From positions 2,604,001 to 2,668,000 of the forward strand of contig NZ_CP024845.1 in assembly GCF_002788215.1 (NCBI RefSeq): a stretch of DNA of 64,000 bases, written 5' to 3'. How positions within the stretch are numbered: the stretch's first letter is position 1; every line of letters begins with the position of its first letter. This DNA comes from Halohasta litchfieldiae. GTDB lineage: Archaea; Halobacteriota; Halobacteria; Halobacteriales; Haloferacaceae. The notes beneath the pieces were generated by a model. The model did no database searches. It was given only the letters and a program-made list of their open reading frames with translations, and was not told where the DNA came from. The position numbers were made by a program, and so were the translations under genes. Positions 39,107 through 49,941 of the stretch are shown here, in pieces.

Positions 39107-41362
39107 TTACTGTTCGGGACGCTCGAACTGGCGTTTCAGTAGATAGCCAGCACCGGCAAGCCCTGCGGCACCGGCTCCGATGCCGAATCCGGGGGTTTCG
39201 CTGTTGGTGCTTTCGCCGTTCTCACTCCCGTTTTCGCCCTGTTGATCACTCCCGTCAGAACTGTTCGACTGCTCGGTGGCTGCCGAATCGTTTTCCGGCG
39301 GCTGATAGACGTAGAGCCCGTCGTTCGGATAGCTCCGGTTGCCGCCGCGCCAGCCGTCCTCACAACAGAGCACGCGACCGTCGCCCATTGCATACACGTT
39401 GTCGACGTTTCGGAGCGCGTCGTCGACGTCCGCCATTGCTTCCTCCTCGGTGAAGTCGGGGCCGATGATGACCGGTTCAAGCCGTGAGACGTTGTAGTCG
39501 GACCCGAGTTCCGCACGGTAGACGACGCCGCCATCAACTCGGTCGAGGGCGATGTCGCCGCCGTCGTTGGTGGGCTGGTTGTCCAGCGCGTCGTTGAACT
39601 CCGAGACGCCGATGTAGATGTAGTCGCCCGGCTGGGCGTTGTCGACGCTGTCGACGCCTTCGGCCTTGTTGAACTCGATTGAGGCACCGATCTCCTTGGC
39701 CGCCGCGCGTGTCTCTAAGAACGGAATCCGTCGAAGCTCCTCGTCGACGCCATCGGGACCGTGTTCTTCGTACTGGTCGGCCCACGCAAGGATGTCCGCG
39801 TCGGAAATGTAGTCCTGATTGCCCGCCTCGATCACTTCGAGATCGGCCTCTTTGAGGACGCCTTCGGTGACCTCATCGCCCTCGTCCCAGTCAGCATGGC
39901 TCTCTAGATAGTCGACCTGCGTAATCTCGTCGTAGTCGGCGATCCACGAGTCGACCTCCCCGTTGCTTGCATGACCAAGCTCTAGCCACTCGATTTCCAG
40001 CGGTACGTCTGCGGGAGAGTCGCCGGATGCAGCCTCGTCATTGGTGATCTTGGGCGCATACAGGGTCCCTTCGATGGCCATCGGGTCGTCGTACTCCGGA
40101 ATCGGCTCGTCGGCGACGAACTTGTAGATTCCCTTACTATCGCCGTCGGAACAGCCGTAGACAGTTCGTTCGTCGGGCAGAAGGTCCGGCGCTTCCCAAG
40201 CGGCCCGGCCCATGACGTAATGTTTGACCGGTGTGATCTCGTCGGGCTCGGCCGCTGGGTCCCGGATCTCGACGTGGTAGCCGTAGCGATAGGGGTTCGG
40301 ATACACGTCTGCGATGGGTTCGAGTGGATTCTCATCGCCATCGGCCTCGACCGGGTCGGCACCCAGATAGTAGGCGAGATGTTCGACCCCGGTCATGTTC
40401 CAGTAGCCCTGAATGGACCAGCCGTCGACCTCGTCGTACTGCTCGTTGACTGCCGTATTGATTTCTACGGGGTTGGGTCTGTTCCAGAAGTGGGCTGCCC
40501 CGTAGATTCCCTCGCCGCTTTCGGCCGCCGAGGCGTCGCTGACGGTGGCAGCGAGACTCACTCGCGGATGGGCGTAGTTCTCCTCCGAGGAGATCGGCGT
40601 GTTCCACGGCGAGAGGTCGCCGTAGCAGTTGATGCGAGTGCCGCCGATATCGCGGAACTGTTCGGTGTTGACCGTGTTGATCGCGTTGTCGGGGTCGGCT
40701 TCCCACTCCCCATCGTCGGTCCGGCTGATCGGCGTTCGCATCACGTTGCCAGGGCTGTTTTCGTCGTTCGTAAACAGGTATCCCTCGGTTCCGTCGTCGG
40801 TGGTTGCGACGAACTGGTTGCAGTCGGGGTTGTAGCCGGCATCGCCGTAGGTAGTCCCCGCGAAATTGTCGGTCGTCACGGGTTCTCCGTCGGGTGTTTG
40901 GGTAACTCCCCACTGCTCGGTGCCATCGTTGATGTCATCGCCTTCCTGAATCAGATACGTGAACTCGGTGTCGGCCGCCCGTGCGTAGTCCTGTTCGCTT
41001 CCCTCCGGCGGTGAGGGCTCCTCGAAATCGTCGTTGGTGCCGTCGAACTCGAACCCGAACTCACTGTAGTAGCCGACGCCGGCTTTGTTCCACGGGGCCG
41101 AATTGTCACGGCTCGGGTGTTGGATACTGTGCAACAACGTTCCGTCATCAAATACAAACGGACCCGTCATCTCTGCCCCAAACGCCGTCGTCGAGAACCG
41201 TTTGAGATCCCCGACGACACTGGGTGCACCATCGGTATCCGTATCGTCGACTGCTGTCGACCGGCTATCGCGGTCTTTCTGTGCGGAGGCGACACCGGGG
41301 ATACCGGCACCGACGGCGGCCGCGACTGAGGCTCTCATCAGGGTTCGTCTGTGGAAATCCAT
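39107..41362 (-). CDS. Tat-exported PhoX/DUF839-like protein with C-terminal anchor signal
   Basis: This 751-residue protein starts MDFHRRTLMRASVAAAVGAG, a Tat signal, and has the PhoX-like pattern: GTLLHSIQHPSRDN, YNPDCNQFVATTDDGTEGYLFTNDENSPGN and VEHLAYYLGADP. PhoX enzymes are secreted calcium-dependent alkaline phosphatases. The C-terminus has a Ser/Glu/Asn-rich stretch, then PGFGIGAGAAGLAGAGYLL and a basic tail KRQFERPEQ, which resembles PGF-CTERM sorting by archaeosortase. It is therefore probably cell-surface anchored. A TATA-like TTTTATCTAATA lies at 41381-41393. Confidence 0.75.
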   Translation of the reverse strand: MDFHRRTLMRASVAAAVGAGIPGVASAQKDRDSRSTAVDDTDTDGAPSVVGDLKRFSTTAFGAEMTGPFVFDDGTLLHSIQHPSRDNSAPWNKAGVGYYSEFGFEFDGTNDDFEEPSPPEGSEQDYARAADTEFTYLIQEGDDINDGTEQWGVTQTPDGEPVTTDNFAGTTYGDAGYNPDCNQFVATTDDGTEGYLFTNDENSPGNVMRTPISRTDDGEWEADPDNAINTVNTEQFRDIGGTRINCYGDLSPWNTPISSEENYAHPRVSLAATVSDASAAESGEGIYGAAHFWNRPNPVEINTAVNEQYDEVDGWSIQGYWNMTGVEHLAYYLGADPVEADGDENPLEPIADVYPNPYRYGYHVEIRDPAAEPDEITPVKHYVMGRAAWEAPDLLPDERTVYGCSDGDSKGIYKFVADEPIPEYDDPMAIEGTLYAPKITNDEAASGDSPADVPLEIEWLELGHASNGEVDSWIADYDEITQVDYLESHADWDEGDEVTEGVLKEADLEVIEAGNQDYISDADILAWADQYEEHGPDGVDEELRRIPFLETRAAAKEIGASIEFNKAEGVDSVDNAQPGDYIYIGVSEFNDALDNQPTNDGGDIALDRVDGGVVYRAELGSDYNVSRLEPVIIGPDFTEEEAMADVDDALRNVDNVYAMGDGRVLCCEDGWRGGNRSYPNDGLYVYQPPENDSAATEQSNSSDGSDQQGENGSENGESTNSETPGFGIGAGAAGLAGAGYLLKRQFERPEQ

Positions 41363-41380
41363 GTATACATTTCGACACGA

Positions 41381-41393
41381 TATTAGATAAAAA
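41381..41393 (-). promoter_or_regulatory. TATA-like box of the PhoX-like gene
   Basis: The minus-strand TTTTATCTAATA is centred about 25 bases before the ATG at 41362. Confidence 0.45.
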
Positions 41394-41568
41394 GCGCTTA
41401 TAATAGATAAGTATCCGTCCACGGAGAGTTTCGACCCCGCAATACCGTCATGTAGTGGTATGTTCGTAGGGAGTTGCCTACTCAATTGTATATATGGGTA
41501 CATATCCGGAATAGCCCCATATAGTACCAATATTGACACTCAAATAACTCACCGGCGACGTCGACTGT

Positions 41569-44329: not shown

Positions 44330-45112
44330 ATGGTCGTCGCACTCACGCCCGCATTCGTCGGGGTTCTGTTCGTGATCGTCATTGTTTCCGGGATGGTCAA
44401 CGGACTGGCCGGGTTCGGGTTTGCGGTCGTGGGGACGATGGCGCTGGCGACGGTCGTCGACCCTGCCACAGCAGTCGTGGTGATGATCATCCCCATGTTG
44501 GCGGCCAACGTGACGCTCGTCAGTGAGCTGTCGACCGATGAACTCCGGAGCTGTGGCAAGCGGTTCGGCCCGCTCGTAGTTTCAGCGCTTCTCGGCACGA
44601 TCATCGGCATGATCGTGCTGGACGCGCTGCCGGGTGGGCCACTGCGCGTCGGCCTCGGCCTGATCACACTTGGCTTTGTGGCCAGCCAACAGCAGGCGGT
44701 GGCGATCCCGTCGCTCGGGATCGAGGGTGGGTCGACGCTCGGGAGCGCTCCAGCGATGATCACAATCGGCGGCGTGTCGGGACTGCTGTTCGGTGCGACC
44801 AACGTCGGGGTCCAACTGGTTGCCTATCTCCGGAGTCAGGATCTCTCCCACGGGCTGTTTGTCGGCGTGGTGGCGATGGTGTTCGTCGGCATCAACGCCC
44901 TCCGCGTCGGGGCGGCGGGCCTCTTGGGACTCTATCCGTCGCTGACCGTCCTCGGACTCTCAGTCGCGGCGACGGTGCCCGCAATCGGGGGTGTCGCAGT
45001 GGGGAGTCGACTTCGGAATCGAGTAAGCAGTCGGCTTCGTCGTCGACTGGTGTTTGGCCTACTGACGATCATCGGGATTCGACTCCTACTCGGTGGACTC
45101 GGCATCGCCTGA
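44330..45112 (+). CDS. TauE/SafE-family sulfite/organosulfonate exporter
   Basis: This 260-residue protein has about eight helices and the TauE/SafE start VSGMVNGLAGFGFAVVGT, with the repeated half GGVSGLLFGATNVGVQLVAYL. The family exports sulfite, sulfoacetate or similar anions. A TTTTATCAA at 44296-44304 is a TATA-like box about 30 bases before the ATG. No sulfonate pathway gene is nearby besides the damaged importer at 20-22 kb. Confidence 0.82.
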   Translation: MVVALTPAFVGVLFVIVIVSGMVNGLAGFGFAVVGTMALATVVDPATAVVVMIIPMLAANVTLVSELSTDELRSCGKRFGPLVVSALLGTIIGMIVLDALPGGPLRVGLGLITLGFVASQQQAVAIPSLGIEGGSTLGSAPAMITIGGVSGLLFGATNVGVQLVAYLRSQDLSHGLFVGVVAMVFVGINALRVGAAGLLGLYPSLTVLGLSVAATVPAIGGVAVGSRLRNRVSSRLRRRLVFGLLTIIGIRLLLGGLGIA

Positions 45113-45138: not shown

Positions 45139-48100
45139 TTACTCGGTGAGTGTGTCGTATTCGGTCACTGTGAGCGTTGAGCTGTCTCCCCACGTGATTT
45201 TCAGCGAATCGGCACCGACGTCGACAGCGTCGACCGAGAGGTCGACTTTCTCGGCGTTCGCATCGGTGCGGTTGCCGGTCATTTTCACTGCTTTTAGGTG
45301 GGCCAACTCGTCGGGATCGGCGCAGTAGTCGTTTGGCGCGCCGACGACCGAGAGCTCCGCGTTCCGGAGCAGCTTCCGGAGTCGTTTCGCCGCGGCGACC
45401 GACCCCGAATCTAGTTTCACGACCAGTTCGTCATCGTCGTCCTCCACGAGGGCACTGTAGTCGGCCGCCGCGAGATCAGTCACGTCATCCCTCGAATCGA
45501 GATCTTCGAACAGATAGAGCCCGCTCGCATCGTCGGTGGTGCGAACGCTGTCAGGGACGATCACGACGAGATCCGTTTTGGTGCCTCCCGTCAGATTCCC
45601 CGCCATCGTGATCCAGTTCGGACGGTGTTCGATTGGGACCGTCTTCGAGCGATCCGGCAGCGGATGGATCTCCTTGGGGAACTTCGTGCGGTCGTCTTCG
45701 ACCCGGAAGATGCCCCACGAGCCGCCTTCGAGTTTCCGCCGCTCGCGTGTCTCCTGATAAATGAAGTCGCCGGTACTCTCGGCGAGTCCGCCCGCACCGC
45801 CGACGGGTTCGACCCGGTCGGTCTTGGTGACGCTGATCTGATCGTCGACACCGACGAGTTTGGAGTCGGCCTCGCCTCGAAGTCGGTCCCACTGGTGCTC
45901 AGCGAGATGGAACGCGAGTCCATCGGCTTTGTCAGCACAGAGATGGATCCGGAACGTCACGGGATCGCCGAGCAGCGCACGGAGCACCGGGGTGTTCGGA
46001 TCGCCGTGGATATTCGAGGCGTACACGTTCGCCGGATTGTCGTCGGCCCGCTCGAACCGGCGACTGAAGGGCTCCGAGCGGTAGTTGATCGCCGGATAGC
46101 CGTGGTCTTCGGGATCGCCCAACTGATTGCAGGGGTCGTCGGAATCTTCGATATCCGGTCCCGGTGGCACCACACAGTTGTCGGGATCGTCCTCGTTGAT
46201 GATGAACTGTCCGTCCGCAAACGCCAGCGAGAAATCCCGGAAATCGTCGCCATCGGGCATCTTCTTCATCACCGAGTGCGCCCGACCGTTCGGTGCTGGC
46301 TCGCAGGTGATCGGATCGAGGAACTCGACGCCCTCCTCTTCGATGACCAGTCGACCGTAGGCTCCGTGGTGGCGGTTGCTTCTGATGTCCGCGAAGTCCT
46401 GAAGCACCGACGAAACCGAAACCTCGTTGACGTACCAGCGGTAGGTGATCTCTTCGCCGGGCCCGATCGTCTGATCCCAGTTGAAGCCGACGGTCGTTCC
46501 GTCGGAGCCGAGAACGTTGTACCGGACCTGTTTGGGATGTAGCGAGATCCGCTTCGAGCGATCCCAGTCCTCGTCGGGACCCTGCATCTCGGGATGTGGA
46601 TGGTCGTTGTCGAGATCGTCGAAGTCGATATCGTTGGTCAGCGTGAGGTCGATGCAGTCGTTCTGTGTCGCGCGCAACAGCAGCGGTTCGAGCGGTGCGT
46701 CGCCGTCGCAGATCGCCTCGACGTCCTCGTCCATCGCATACGCGATGCCGTAGGGGTCGACGTCGCCGTACTCGTTGTACTCGATCTCGGTATCGAACGC
46801 CGTCACATTGAACTGTAGACGATCCGCATCTTTCGGACACGGTCTGCCCGGCGACGGGGCGAGCTCCGGTGGATCGCCGGTAATGGCGTCGTTCTGCCGG
46901 GCCTCTTTGTCGGCGGGGAACTCCTGTCGCTCCTCTTTTTTGTCCGCGTAGAGAAGCCGTGCGAGTTGGCCCGTCTCCGACCAATTGAACTCGCTCCACG
47001 GAGCCGGATGCCCCATCTCTTTGAGCTGCTTGCGACTGATCGTCTCGTTCGGGGCCTTCCGGTCCGGCAACGGTTCGAGGTGGTCGACTTCCCCGCCGAA
47101 CTCTCGAAACAGTCCCCACATCCCGTTCCAGAGATCGTCGACGACCCGTGATCCATACAGATAGTCCTTGATCGGGAGGCCAGCGGGGTTCTCGTCGAGT
47201 TCCTCGATGAACGTCCCCTCACCGATTGAGTCGGGTTCCTCCAGAAGATCGAGTGCGAAGGCTTCCGAGGTGCCGATGACCTGCGTGACGGCGTCTTCGG
47301 GGTCCTGTCCCTCCGGATCGAACCGTCGACCGTTGATCGTGAAGTTGTGTTGTTCCTCGTAGCCCCCATGCCACAGCCGGAAGCGAACCGGATCGTCCTC
47401 GTAGGCCTCGAAAGTGGGCGTCGACGGATCGCCGTGGACGAACGAGGAGTGAACGTAAGCCGGATCACAGTCGTCGCGGATGTAGTAGGGCGTGTTCCGG
47501 TAGTTGATCGCCATTACCCCCGCGTTCTCGTTGTGTTCGGCCTCGTTTCGGTTGACCAGCTCGCCGTCGCGGTCGACCAGCTGTGCGAAATCGTGGTAAG
47601 CCACACAGAACTCCCGGTAGTCGGTGCCGTCGGGCACCTCGATGATCGCTTGGGTACCGCTGTCGATCTCGTCACCGCTGAACGGATCGAGCCAGCGTGA
47701 TTTGGGCGGCTCAACCACGAGCGAGGCGAACGAGCCGTGCATCACGTCTTCGATGCCGGTGATGTGATCGTGGAAAAAGATCGTCCCCTCCTCGTCGGCA
47801 AACCATCGATAAAAGGCCTTTTCGCCTGATTTGGCGTCCTGACGGTAGTTGAATCCAGACGCCAGTGAGTCCGAGCCCAGAAGATCATAGGAGACGAAAT
47901 GGATGTGGTTGGATTTCCCACCGGCCTCGATGGGAACACTGTCGGGGTTGCCGTCCTCGCCGCCCTCCGGGAAGCGGTCGGCGGGGATCGCCGCGATGTT
48001 TTCCTCGGTGACCTCGTTTTTAAATGTAATGTCGACGCAGTCGCCGACGTTGGCGCGGATGACCAGCGGTTCGGGATTCAACTTCCCCTTTTTGACTAGT

Positions 48101-49941
48101 TCGGCGTTCTCTTCGAGCACGTAGACGATTCCGTTCGGATCGTGGTGTCCGGCGTCGTTGTAGACGACATCGGCGGGAAGGGCGACGATGGTGTACTCAC
48201 GTTTCTCGCCCTCGATCTCGGCTTCGACGTCGGGATCACAGGGATCTGTGTACGGCGCACCGGGGATGATATCGTCGCCGAGGGCGGCCTGCTCGTCGTC
48301 GGTCGGATCACGGAACTCCTCCTTTCCGGCCGCACCGTACGGTGGGAACGGCGGTGTGTTACCGAACTTGCCGGGAATGAACTCGGGGTAGCCGGGCACG
48401 TCCGAATCGAGCGGAATCGGCGGCTTGTTGTTCGGCAGCGTCTGGAATCCCTTTCGCTCCTTGTCAAGTACGCGCATGATTCCCCACATTCCCTCGCCGT
48501 AGTGGGGGAAGAGGTGGCAGTGGAACAGTACATCACCCGTCGACCGGTGTGCGCCACCCGCACCAACCGCAAAGGAGTCCTCGAACTCCAGATTCGGACG
48601 CACGGTCGTGAAATCGTTGATACCTTCTGTCGACGTCCCTGAGGCAACGCTGAGCGGGCTCTCGTAGACCGCCCCGAGGCCGACCGTCTGGGAGTCGACG
48701 GTACCTGAAGAAATGTCCGGCGGCGTCTCTTTCCAGCGATGGCCGTGGAGGTGGTGGACGTGGTTTTCTTCGACCGACGCCCCCATCGGCAGCACGTTCA
48801 CCGGATCGCCGACGTACACCGGATACACGTTGTCACCGCCGCCGGGGTCGCCGTTGAGCCACGAGTTGTAGAAGTTCTCTCTGATCTCCGGGTCGCTCCC
48901 GTCGGGTATCCGGTTCCCGGTCGGGTCCGCACGGTAGTTGATCGCGTGAGTCGTCTGGTCCTCGTCGCTGTCGGGGAACGTCAACTCATCGCCGTCAGCG
49001 GTTCGCATTCCTTCAGGGGTGTGATAATAAATGACGAACTGTCGGTAGCTGAGTCCGGGTACATTACCCGCTTGCATGGCCTCCTCGCTGAGATCATCCG
49101 GCAGGTGGATGTCCGCCTGAACCCGACCCTGTTCTTCGTCACCGGTGAAGGGGTCGGTCCACTCGGTGCCCTGTGGGTGGACGATGACCGAGCCGAACAG
49201 TCCCCGCGACAGCAGGTTGGCCTCCTGTGGCGGATCGTCGGCGCTGTCGTAGGCCTGGTTCGCCCCATCGAGGAAGAAGTGACCACCCAGGTTCGAGGCG
49301 TACCACCGGTACGTGATCGATTCGCCGGGCTCGACGGTCGTATCCGGGTTGAACCCGACATGCATCCCGTCGCTGTCGTCGACCTCGTACGGCAGCGAGG
49401 TCATATGCATCGAGGCCGCTCGGTCGAGGTCGTTGTGGAACTCGATCTCGATGATATCGCCCTTCTCGGCACGAAGTGTGAGCGGCTGGATCAGTCGCGT
49501 ATCGCCGTCGGCGCGTTTGTCCTCGGGGATCTCTTCGCAAAAGAACTCGTCGTCTTCGTCGTCGTCCTCGAAGACGACCGTGTTCCCGCAGGGTCGCTTT
49601 CCGGAGAGCTTTTTGATCTCCTTTCTATCCTCTTCGAGCGCGTACATGACGCCGACCGGCTGGTGGAGGCCGTACCGGTTGTAGACGATGTCGACGTCGA
49701 TTGCATGGGCATCGAAATGCCGAACCTGTCCAGCTTCATCGGGTTCCTCGGGGACCTCCTCACGTTCGGTAGCGTCCTCTGTGGCCGCAGCTCCGGTCGA
49801 GAGTGCTGTCCCCGCTGCGACCGTCCCACTTATCGATAGGAAATCCCGCCGAGACGTTTCAGCCGAGTTGAACAGGGAGTGATCTTCAATCGCGCCATCG
49901 GGTGATGATGCATCAGTATCGTCGCCGTTTTCCTGCGACAT
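45139..49941 (-). CDS. giant Tat-exported multicopper-oxidase-like protein, 1600 residues
   Basis: The protein starts MSQENGDDTD and has a Tat signal SRRDFLSISGTVAAG at about residues 30-44. Three cupredoxin-pair modules follow (about 75-495, 582-950, 1042-1415) and a 185-residue C-terminal domain. Copper ligands of one multicopper oxidase site are all present but in reverse order: HVHHLHGH (394-401) and HCHLFPHYGEGM (474-485) close module 1, while HIH (679-681) and HDH (724-726) open module 2. The corresponding places at residues 179-221, 865 and in module 3 are degenerate. The likely activity is extracellular oxidation of a metal or phenol. The six-cupredoxin size recalls MnxG-type manganese oxidases. 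Codon use looks like the neighbours. Confidence 0.85.
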   Translation of the reverse strand: MSQENGDDTDASSPDGAIEDHSLFNSAETSRRDFLSISGTVAAGTALSTGAAATEDATEREEVPEEPDEAGQVRHFDAHAIDVDIVYNRYGLHQPVGVMYALEEDRKEIKKLSGKRPCGNTVVFEDDDEDDEFFCEEIPEDKRADGDTRLIQPLTLRAEKGDIIEIEFHNDLDRAASMHMTSLPYEVDDSDGMHVGFNPDTTVEPGESITYRWYASNLGGHFFLDGANQAYDSADDPPQEANLLSRGLFGSVIVHPQGTEWTDPFTGDEEQGRVQADIHLPDDLSEEAMQAGNVPGLSYRQFVIYYHTPEGMRTADGDELTFPDSDEDQTTHAINYRADPTGNRIPDGSDPEIRENFYNSWLNGDPGGGDNVYPVYVGDPVNVLPMGASVEENHVHHLHGHRWKETPPDISSGTVDSQTVGLGAVYESPLSVASGTSTEGINDFTTVRPNLEFEDSFAVGAGGAHRSTGDVLFHCHLFPHYGEGMWGIMRVLDKERKGFQTLPNNKPPIPLDSDVPGYPEFIPGKFGNTPPFPPYGAAGKEEFRDPTDDEQAALGDDIIPGAPYTDPCDPDVEAEIEGEKREYTIVALPADVVYNDAGHHDPNGIVYVLEENAELVKKGKLNPEPLVIRANVGDCVDITFKNEVTEENIAAIPADRFPEGGEDGNPDSVPIEAGGKSNHIHFVSYDLLGSDSLASGFNYRQDAKSGEKAFYRWFADEEGTIFFHDHITGIEDVMHGSFASLVVEPPKSRWLDPFSGDEIDSGTQAIIEVPDGTDYREFCVAYHDFAQLVDRDGELVNRNEAEHNENAGVMAINYRNTPYYIRDDCDPAYVHSSFVHGDPSTPTFEAYEDDPVRFRLWHGGYEEQHNFTINGRRFDPEGQDPEDAVTQVIGTSEAFALDLLEEPDSIGEGTFIEELDENPAGLPIKDYLYGSRVVDDLWNGMWGLFREFGGEVDHLEPLPDRKAPNETISRKQLKEMGHPAPWSEFNWSETGQLARLLYADKKEERQEFPADKEARQNDAITGDPPELAPSPGRPCPKDADRLQFNVTAFDTEIEYNEYGDVDPYGIAYAMDEDVEAICDGDAPLEPLLLRATQNDCIDLTLTNDIDFDDLDNDHPHPEMQGPDEDWDRSKRISLHPKQVRYNVLGSDGTTVGFNWDQTIGPGEEITYRWYVNEVSVSSVLQDFADIRSNRHHGAYGRLVIEEEGVEFLDPITCEPAPNGRAHSVMKKMPDGDDFRDFSLAFADGQFIINEDDPDNCVVPPGPDIEDSDDPCNQLGDPEDHGYPAINYRSEPFSRRFERADDNPANVYASNIHGDPNTPVLRALLGDPVTFRIHLCADKADGLAFHLAEHQWDRLRGEADSKLVGVDDQISVTKTDRVEPVGGAGGLAESTGDFIYQETRERRKLEGGSWGIFRVEDDRTKFPKEIHPLPDRSKTVPIEHRPNWITMAGNLTGGTKTDLVVIVPDSVRTTDDASGLYLFEDLDSRDDVTDLAAADYSALVEDDDDELVVKLDSGSVAAAKRLRKLLRNAELSVVGAPNDYCADPDELAHLKAVKMTGNRTDANAEKVDLSVDAVDVGADSLKITWGDSSTLTVTEYDTLTE

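Follow-up and report, generated by a model that had tools for sequence, protein, structure and literature searches.

A predicted haloarchaeal member of the MnxG-type six-domain multicopper oxidases in Halohasta litchfieldiae, with a possible role in manganese oxidation

The window, a stretch of 64,000 nucleotides from contig NZ_CP024845.1 of Halohasta litchfieldiae, carries on its reverse strand, at 45139..49941, an open reading frame with the features of an MnxG-like six-domain multicopper oxidase gene, which runs from an ATG at 49941 to a stop at 45139 and encodes 1600 aa; an alternative TTG start six codons upstream of that ATG would give 1606 aa. The product has an acidic predicted pI of 4.3 and begins with a Tat-type signal (SRRDFLSISG..., residues 29-47, 49801..49857, reverse strand like all features of the gene given below), recognised by its RR motif and by the Pfam model TAT_signal, whose match (E 0.002, 18.5 bits) lies below the curated cut-off of 22.7. 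With a regular expression, a similar RR motif was retrieved from 27 out of 35 distinct haloarchaeal relatives, and the oxidase is probably exported, presumably by the Tat pathway. The leader is followed by module 1 (domains 1 and 2, residues 71-545, 48307..49731) and module 2 (domains 3 and 4, residues 571-1000, 46942..48231), both delimited by profile repeats and a structural model, and by module 3 (domains 5 and 6, residues 1040-1430, 45652..46824), which was delimited by profile repeats, matches MnxG residues 810-1208 and has lost its ligands. The remaining C-terminal tail (residues 1431-1600, 45142..45651) aligns with a stretch in which some relatives have an FG-GAP-like repeat, six of 20 alignment members matching FG-GAP. 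Among the relatives, some haloarchaeal proteins (from loci L037, L039 and L044) have a long extra N-terminal region between leader and module 1, and one of the 20 members of alignment A1 has a weak match to Peptidase_M73 (Camelysin).

The neighbours of the gene in the window comprise PurL, PhoX-like, HTH regulator, AIR-synthase-like, TauE/SafE-like, HAD and PanB proteins, which are shared mainly with Halohasta litorea and have few other matches, e.g., the HTH gene. The TauE/SafE-type permease (44330-45112, forward strand) is convergent with the oxidase gene, and at the H. litorea locus just a 40% match over 102 residues to it was found. The PhoX-like alkaline phosphatase domain protein (39107-41539, reverse strand, 810 aa) carries a PGF-CTERM surface anchor and has no match among the ORFs of the corresponding H. 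litorea stretch. Beside the window gene there was neither a metal or copper gene cluster nor any conserved neighbour. Of the neighbour families at 33 haloarchaeal loci none occurred at more than eight, histidine kinases being the commonest, and CHRD-like proteins, which recur at five loci, are absent beside the window gene. Operon context was dropped as a clue to function, since the neighbours are not conserved across the haloarchaeal loci.

Profile comparison showed the three modules to be homologous to each other (modules 1 and 2, E 8e-82; 1 and 3, E 3e-83; 2 and 3, E 3e-92), with the odd-numbered domains mutually homologous and the even-numbered ones likewise, in agreement with the three-module layout proposed by the first-pass annotation, which had been made from the nucleotide sequence of the window. 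The same annotation had reported four copper motifs forming one complete ligand set in which the C-terminal-type motifs come first, and all four lie where it placed them. Motif L3, HVHHLHGH (residues 394-401, 48739..48762), would provide type 1 (T1) His394, T2 His397 and T3 His399; motif L4, HCHLFPHYGEGM (residues 474-485, 48487..48522), T3 His474, T1 Cys475, T3 His476, T1 His480 and the axial Met485; motif L1, HIH (residues 679-681, 47899..47907), a T2 and a T3 His; and motif L2, HDH (residues 724-726, 47764..47772), two T3 His, where we take the ligand roles to be those of the standard multicopper-oxidase motifs. The order is thus L3-L4 (394, 474) followed by L1-L2 (679, 724), and the four motifs together make up one full set: type 1 copper would be bound by two His, one Cys and one Met, the trinuclear cluster by eight His. 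By sequence, the trinuclear ligands fall in domains 2 and 3 and the type 1 ligands in domain 2 only. In domains 1, 4, 5 and 6, profile comparison found no full motifs at the corresponding positions and only isolated histidines, so that the ligand loss previously noted for module 3 extends to domains 1 and 4.

At each of the 12 ligand positions of domains 2 and 3, 111-113 of 113 aligned sequences retain the ligand, which shows that the copper motifs are not there by chance. This conservation also bears on whether the protein might be a non-catalytic descendant comparable to coagulation factor V, with the fold retained for binding or as a surface structure: the loss of ligands in four of six domains would fit such a history, but the retention of 12 out of 12 ligands of the remaining site across haloarchaea and bacteria is unexpected for a dead site, and we regard this reading as very improbable. 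Alignments A1 and A2 show no variation at two acidic residues near motif L3, Glu392 and Asp416, which might be considered, by inference only, as candidate substrate-site residues. In one relative, encoded on a Pseudonocardia plasmid (L068:5025-8795), motif L4 aligns without its HCH, the remainder of the protein being aligned, and the copper site of this relative is possibly dead or altered.

The motif order sets the window protein apart from the three-domain laccases and CueO, in which the motifs run L1-L2-L3-L4, as had been pointed out before. Ceruloplasmin shares the six cupredoxin domains, but its trinuclear site lies between domains 1 and 6, which have no complete motifs in the window protein. 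That the order is unlike that of laccases and CueO could be taken to mean that a genuinely new permuted arrangement arose in this protein. We rejected this explanation, to which we assign next to no probability, as MnxG has the identical motif order, which is also found in bacterial relatives on plasmids and chromosomes and was published in 2013 (PMC3600357). In that study, Vasin et al. described 23 MnxG-related six-domain proteins of prokaryotes, including the haloarchaeal Hlac_1576 of Halorubrum lacusprofundi and Htur_3146 of Haloterrigena turkmenica, and in every prokaryotic six-domain protein analysed they placed the trinuclear site between domains 2 and 3 (PMC3600357). Going by the published description, these two proteins, from other species of the same class of organisms, belong to the same family as the window protein and have the same site. 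The active site predicted here would combine the second domain of module 1 with the first domain of module 2, in agreement with their placement, and because the published site lies between domains 2 and 3 throughout, the inverted order is a rule of the family and no peculiarity of the window protein. Annotated haloarchaeal relatives are already named multicopper oxidase domain-containing proteins.

The resemblance to MnxG, which the first-pass annotation had suggested, is supported by sequence, by predicted fold and by motif order. In a search against all solved structures, the best relative by sequence was MnxG of Bacillus sp. PL-12 (9bxa, the Mnx H340A complex), matched over all three modules with E 1.4e-190, whereas the next solved family reached only E 2.9e-11. 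A structure predicted from 51 aligned relatives (alignment A2) for residues 71-1000, i.e., modules 1 and 2, had a mean pLDDT of 83 and a pTM of 0.86, and a fold search with this two-module model again returned 9bxa as closest (TM 0.75, rmsd 4.6, E 2.6e-79), followed by ceruloplasmin, at a TM of only 0.48, and clotting factors at 0.48 or less. This match of the two-module model bears, though only indirectly, on whether the four motifs would lie near enough to each other in space for a trinuclear site, the point on which the first-pass annotation had made its reading depend. The window protein and 9bxa MnxG have three modules, the order L3-L4-L1-L2 and the full type 1 and trinuclear ligand set in common (with His340 changed to Ala in the solved construct), together with the predicted fold of modules 1 and 2. 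Window His480 aligns with Ala in 9bxa and with His in the other aligned sequences, and this Ala is most simply read as the engineered H340A change. The NCBIfam model of the Pseudomonas-type MnxG (NF041487), which comprises 1894 positions, gave a significant match of 173 bits, far from its equivalog cut-off of 3100. As an argument against kinship to MnxG this cut-off is uninformative, because the MnxG of Priestia, whose gene lies next to those of MnxE and MnxF, also falls below it, at 353 bits.

The gene is patchily distributed, being present in 25 of 391 genomes of the class, including that of the window; two further genomes of the genus were sampled, and the gene is present in one and absent from the other. 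A Halohasta litorea protein is 88% identical to the window protein. Further relatives come from Bacillota, Actinomycetota, Alphaproteobacteria and Bacteroidota. Both in a quick tree and in a site-mixture tree, all haloarchaeal sequences fell into one clade with two proteins of Bacillus sp. EB01 and Neobacillus sp. DY30, and in the site-mixture tree this clade had a support of 100/100 and the MnxEFG clade, outside which the window protein lies, 99/98. The EB01 and DY30 proteins share HCHLFPHY and HIHFV(S/A)YD with many haloarchaeal copies, and the other aligned bacteria have HCHLYPHF (HCHSYPHF in one) and mostly H-x-H-[FLMY]-V-K-F-D. By these trees, the haloarchaeal proteins are a distinct archaeal branch of the MnxG family, and their nesting in the quick tree suggests a possible horizontal transfer from bacteria.

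MnxG, with about 1220 residues, is encoded together with MnxE and MnxF in most Bacilli examined. In Priestia megaterium, a plasmid-borne mnxG is immediately preceded by two small genes with matches to MnxE and MnxF of 9bxa, and profiles built from such preceding genes had matches at 54 (MnxE) and 57 (MnxF) fetched loci, all of them bacterial. At the fetched haloarchaeal loci and in the window the two profiles had zero matches, a search that a strongly diverged partner would escape; no match was obtained in the window's own genome either, and in a control by this route, run with the MnxF profile, a record known to carry MnxF was detected. The EB01 and DY30 loci (L082 and L099) likewise had no MnxE/F match, unlike most Bacilli loci examined. 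The window protein therefore differs from MnxG in its 1600 residues, its Tat-type N-terminus, its pI of 4.3, its C-terminal tail, the lack of MnxE/F matches and its separate clade.

Together, these results make it very probable that the gene encodes a six-domain MnxG-type multicopper oxidase, probably exported, whose site would be held by domains 2 and 3. Multicopper oxidases couple four one-electron oxidations at the type 1 copper to the reduction of O2 at the trinuclear cluster, and since the ligand set is complete, the chemistry of the class can be expected here, although the substrate does not follow from the ligands. By analogy with this known chemistry, the type 1 copper of domain 2 (His394, Cys475, His480, Met485) would take up electrons from a reduced extracellular substrate and pass them through the His-Cys-His of motif L4 to the trinuclear cluster between domains 2 and 3, where O2 would be reduced to water, while the other four domains, devoid of a complete copper site, would be structural. 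The substrate would most likely be Mn(II) or another low-valent metal ion, oxidised outside the membrane and, unlike in the Bacillus enzyme, without MnxE and MnxF.

Kinship favours Mn(II) as the physiological substrate, a choice to which we give somewhat less than an even chance, and the protein can be placed in a known family as a haloarchaeal member that may act in manganese oxidation. As the haloarchaeal clade is separate from the MnxEFG clade, the substrate may differ from that of MnxG, and an enzyme of the same class and mechanism with Fe(II), Cu(I) or an organic substrate, which would serve metal handling or stress protection as a ferroxidase, cuprous oxidase or laccase-like enzyme, comes close to being evenly probable. 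It would be in line with the proteins' own clade and missing MnxE/F, with the ferroxidase activity of the six-domain relatives ceruloplasmin and Fox1 (PMC3600357), and with the ZIP, CDF, CopC and CopD genes near a Rubrobacter relative, yet the manganese oxidase MnxG is by far the nearest characterised protein. In Pseudomonas putida GB-1, deletions of mnxG and mcoA have shown that each of the two can support Mn oxidation (PMC11930936).

Enzymes of the MnxG type produce manganese oxides in the environment. Our tentative proposal, to which we give slightly less than an even chance, is that the haloarchaeal clade consists of exported, MnxE/F-independent Mn(II) oxidases, which, if true, would provide archaea living in brines with a route of their own to manganese oxides. 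A search of the open-access literature, which was not exhaustive, found no demonstration of a haloarchaeal manganese oxidase. With this patchy branch without MnxE/F, one can ask directly if the large subunit is sufficient on its own, and also whether haloarchaea form manganese oxides in brines. Elsewhere in the H. litchfieldiae genome, other Cu-oxidase_2 matches are confined to one frame of 416 residues, which lies about 243 kb away from the oxidase gene (G000:C1:2896849-2897571).
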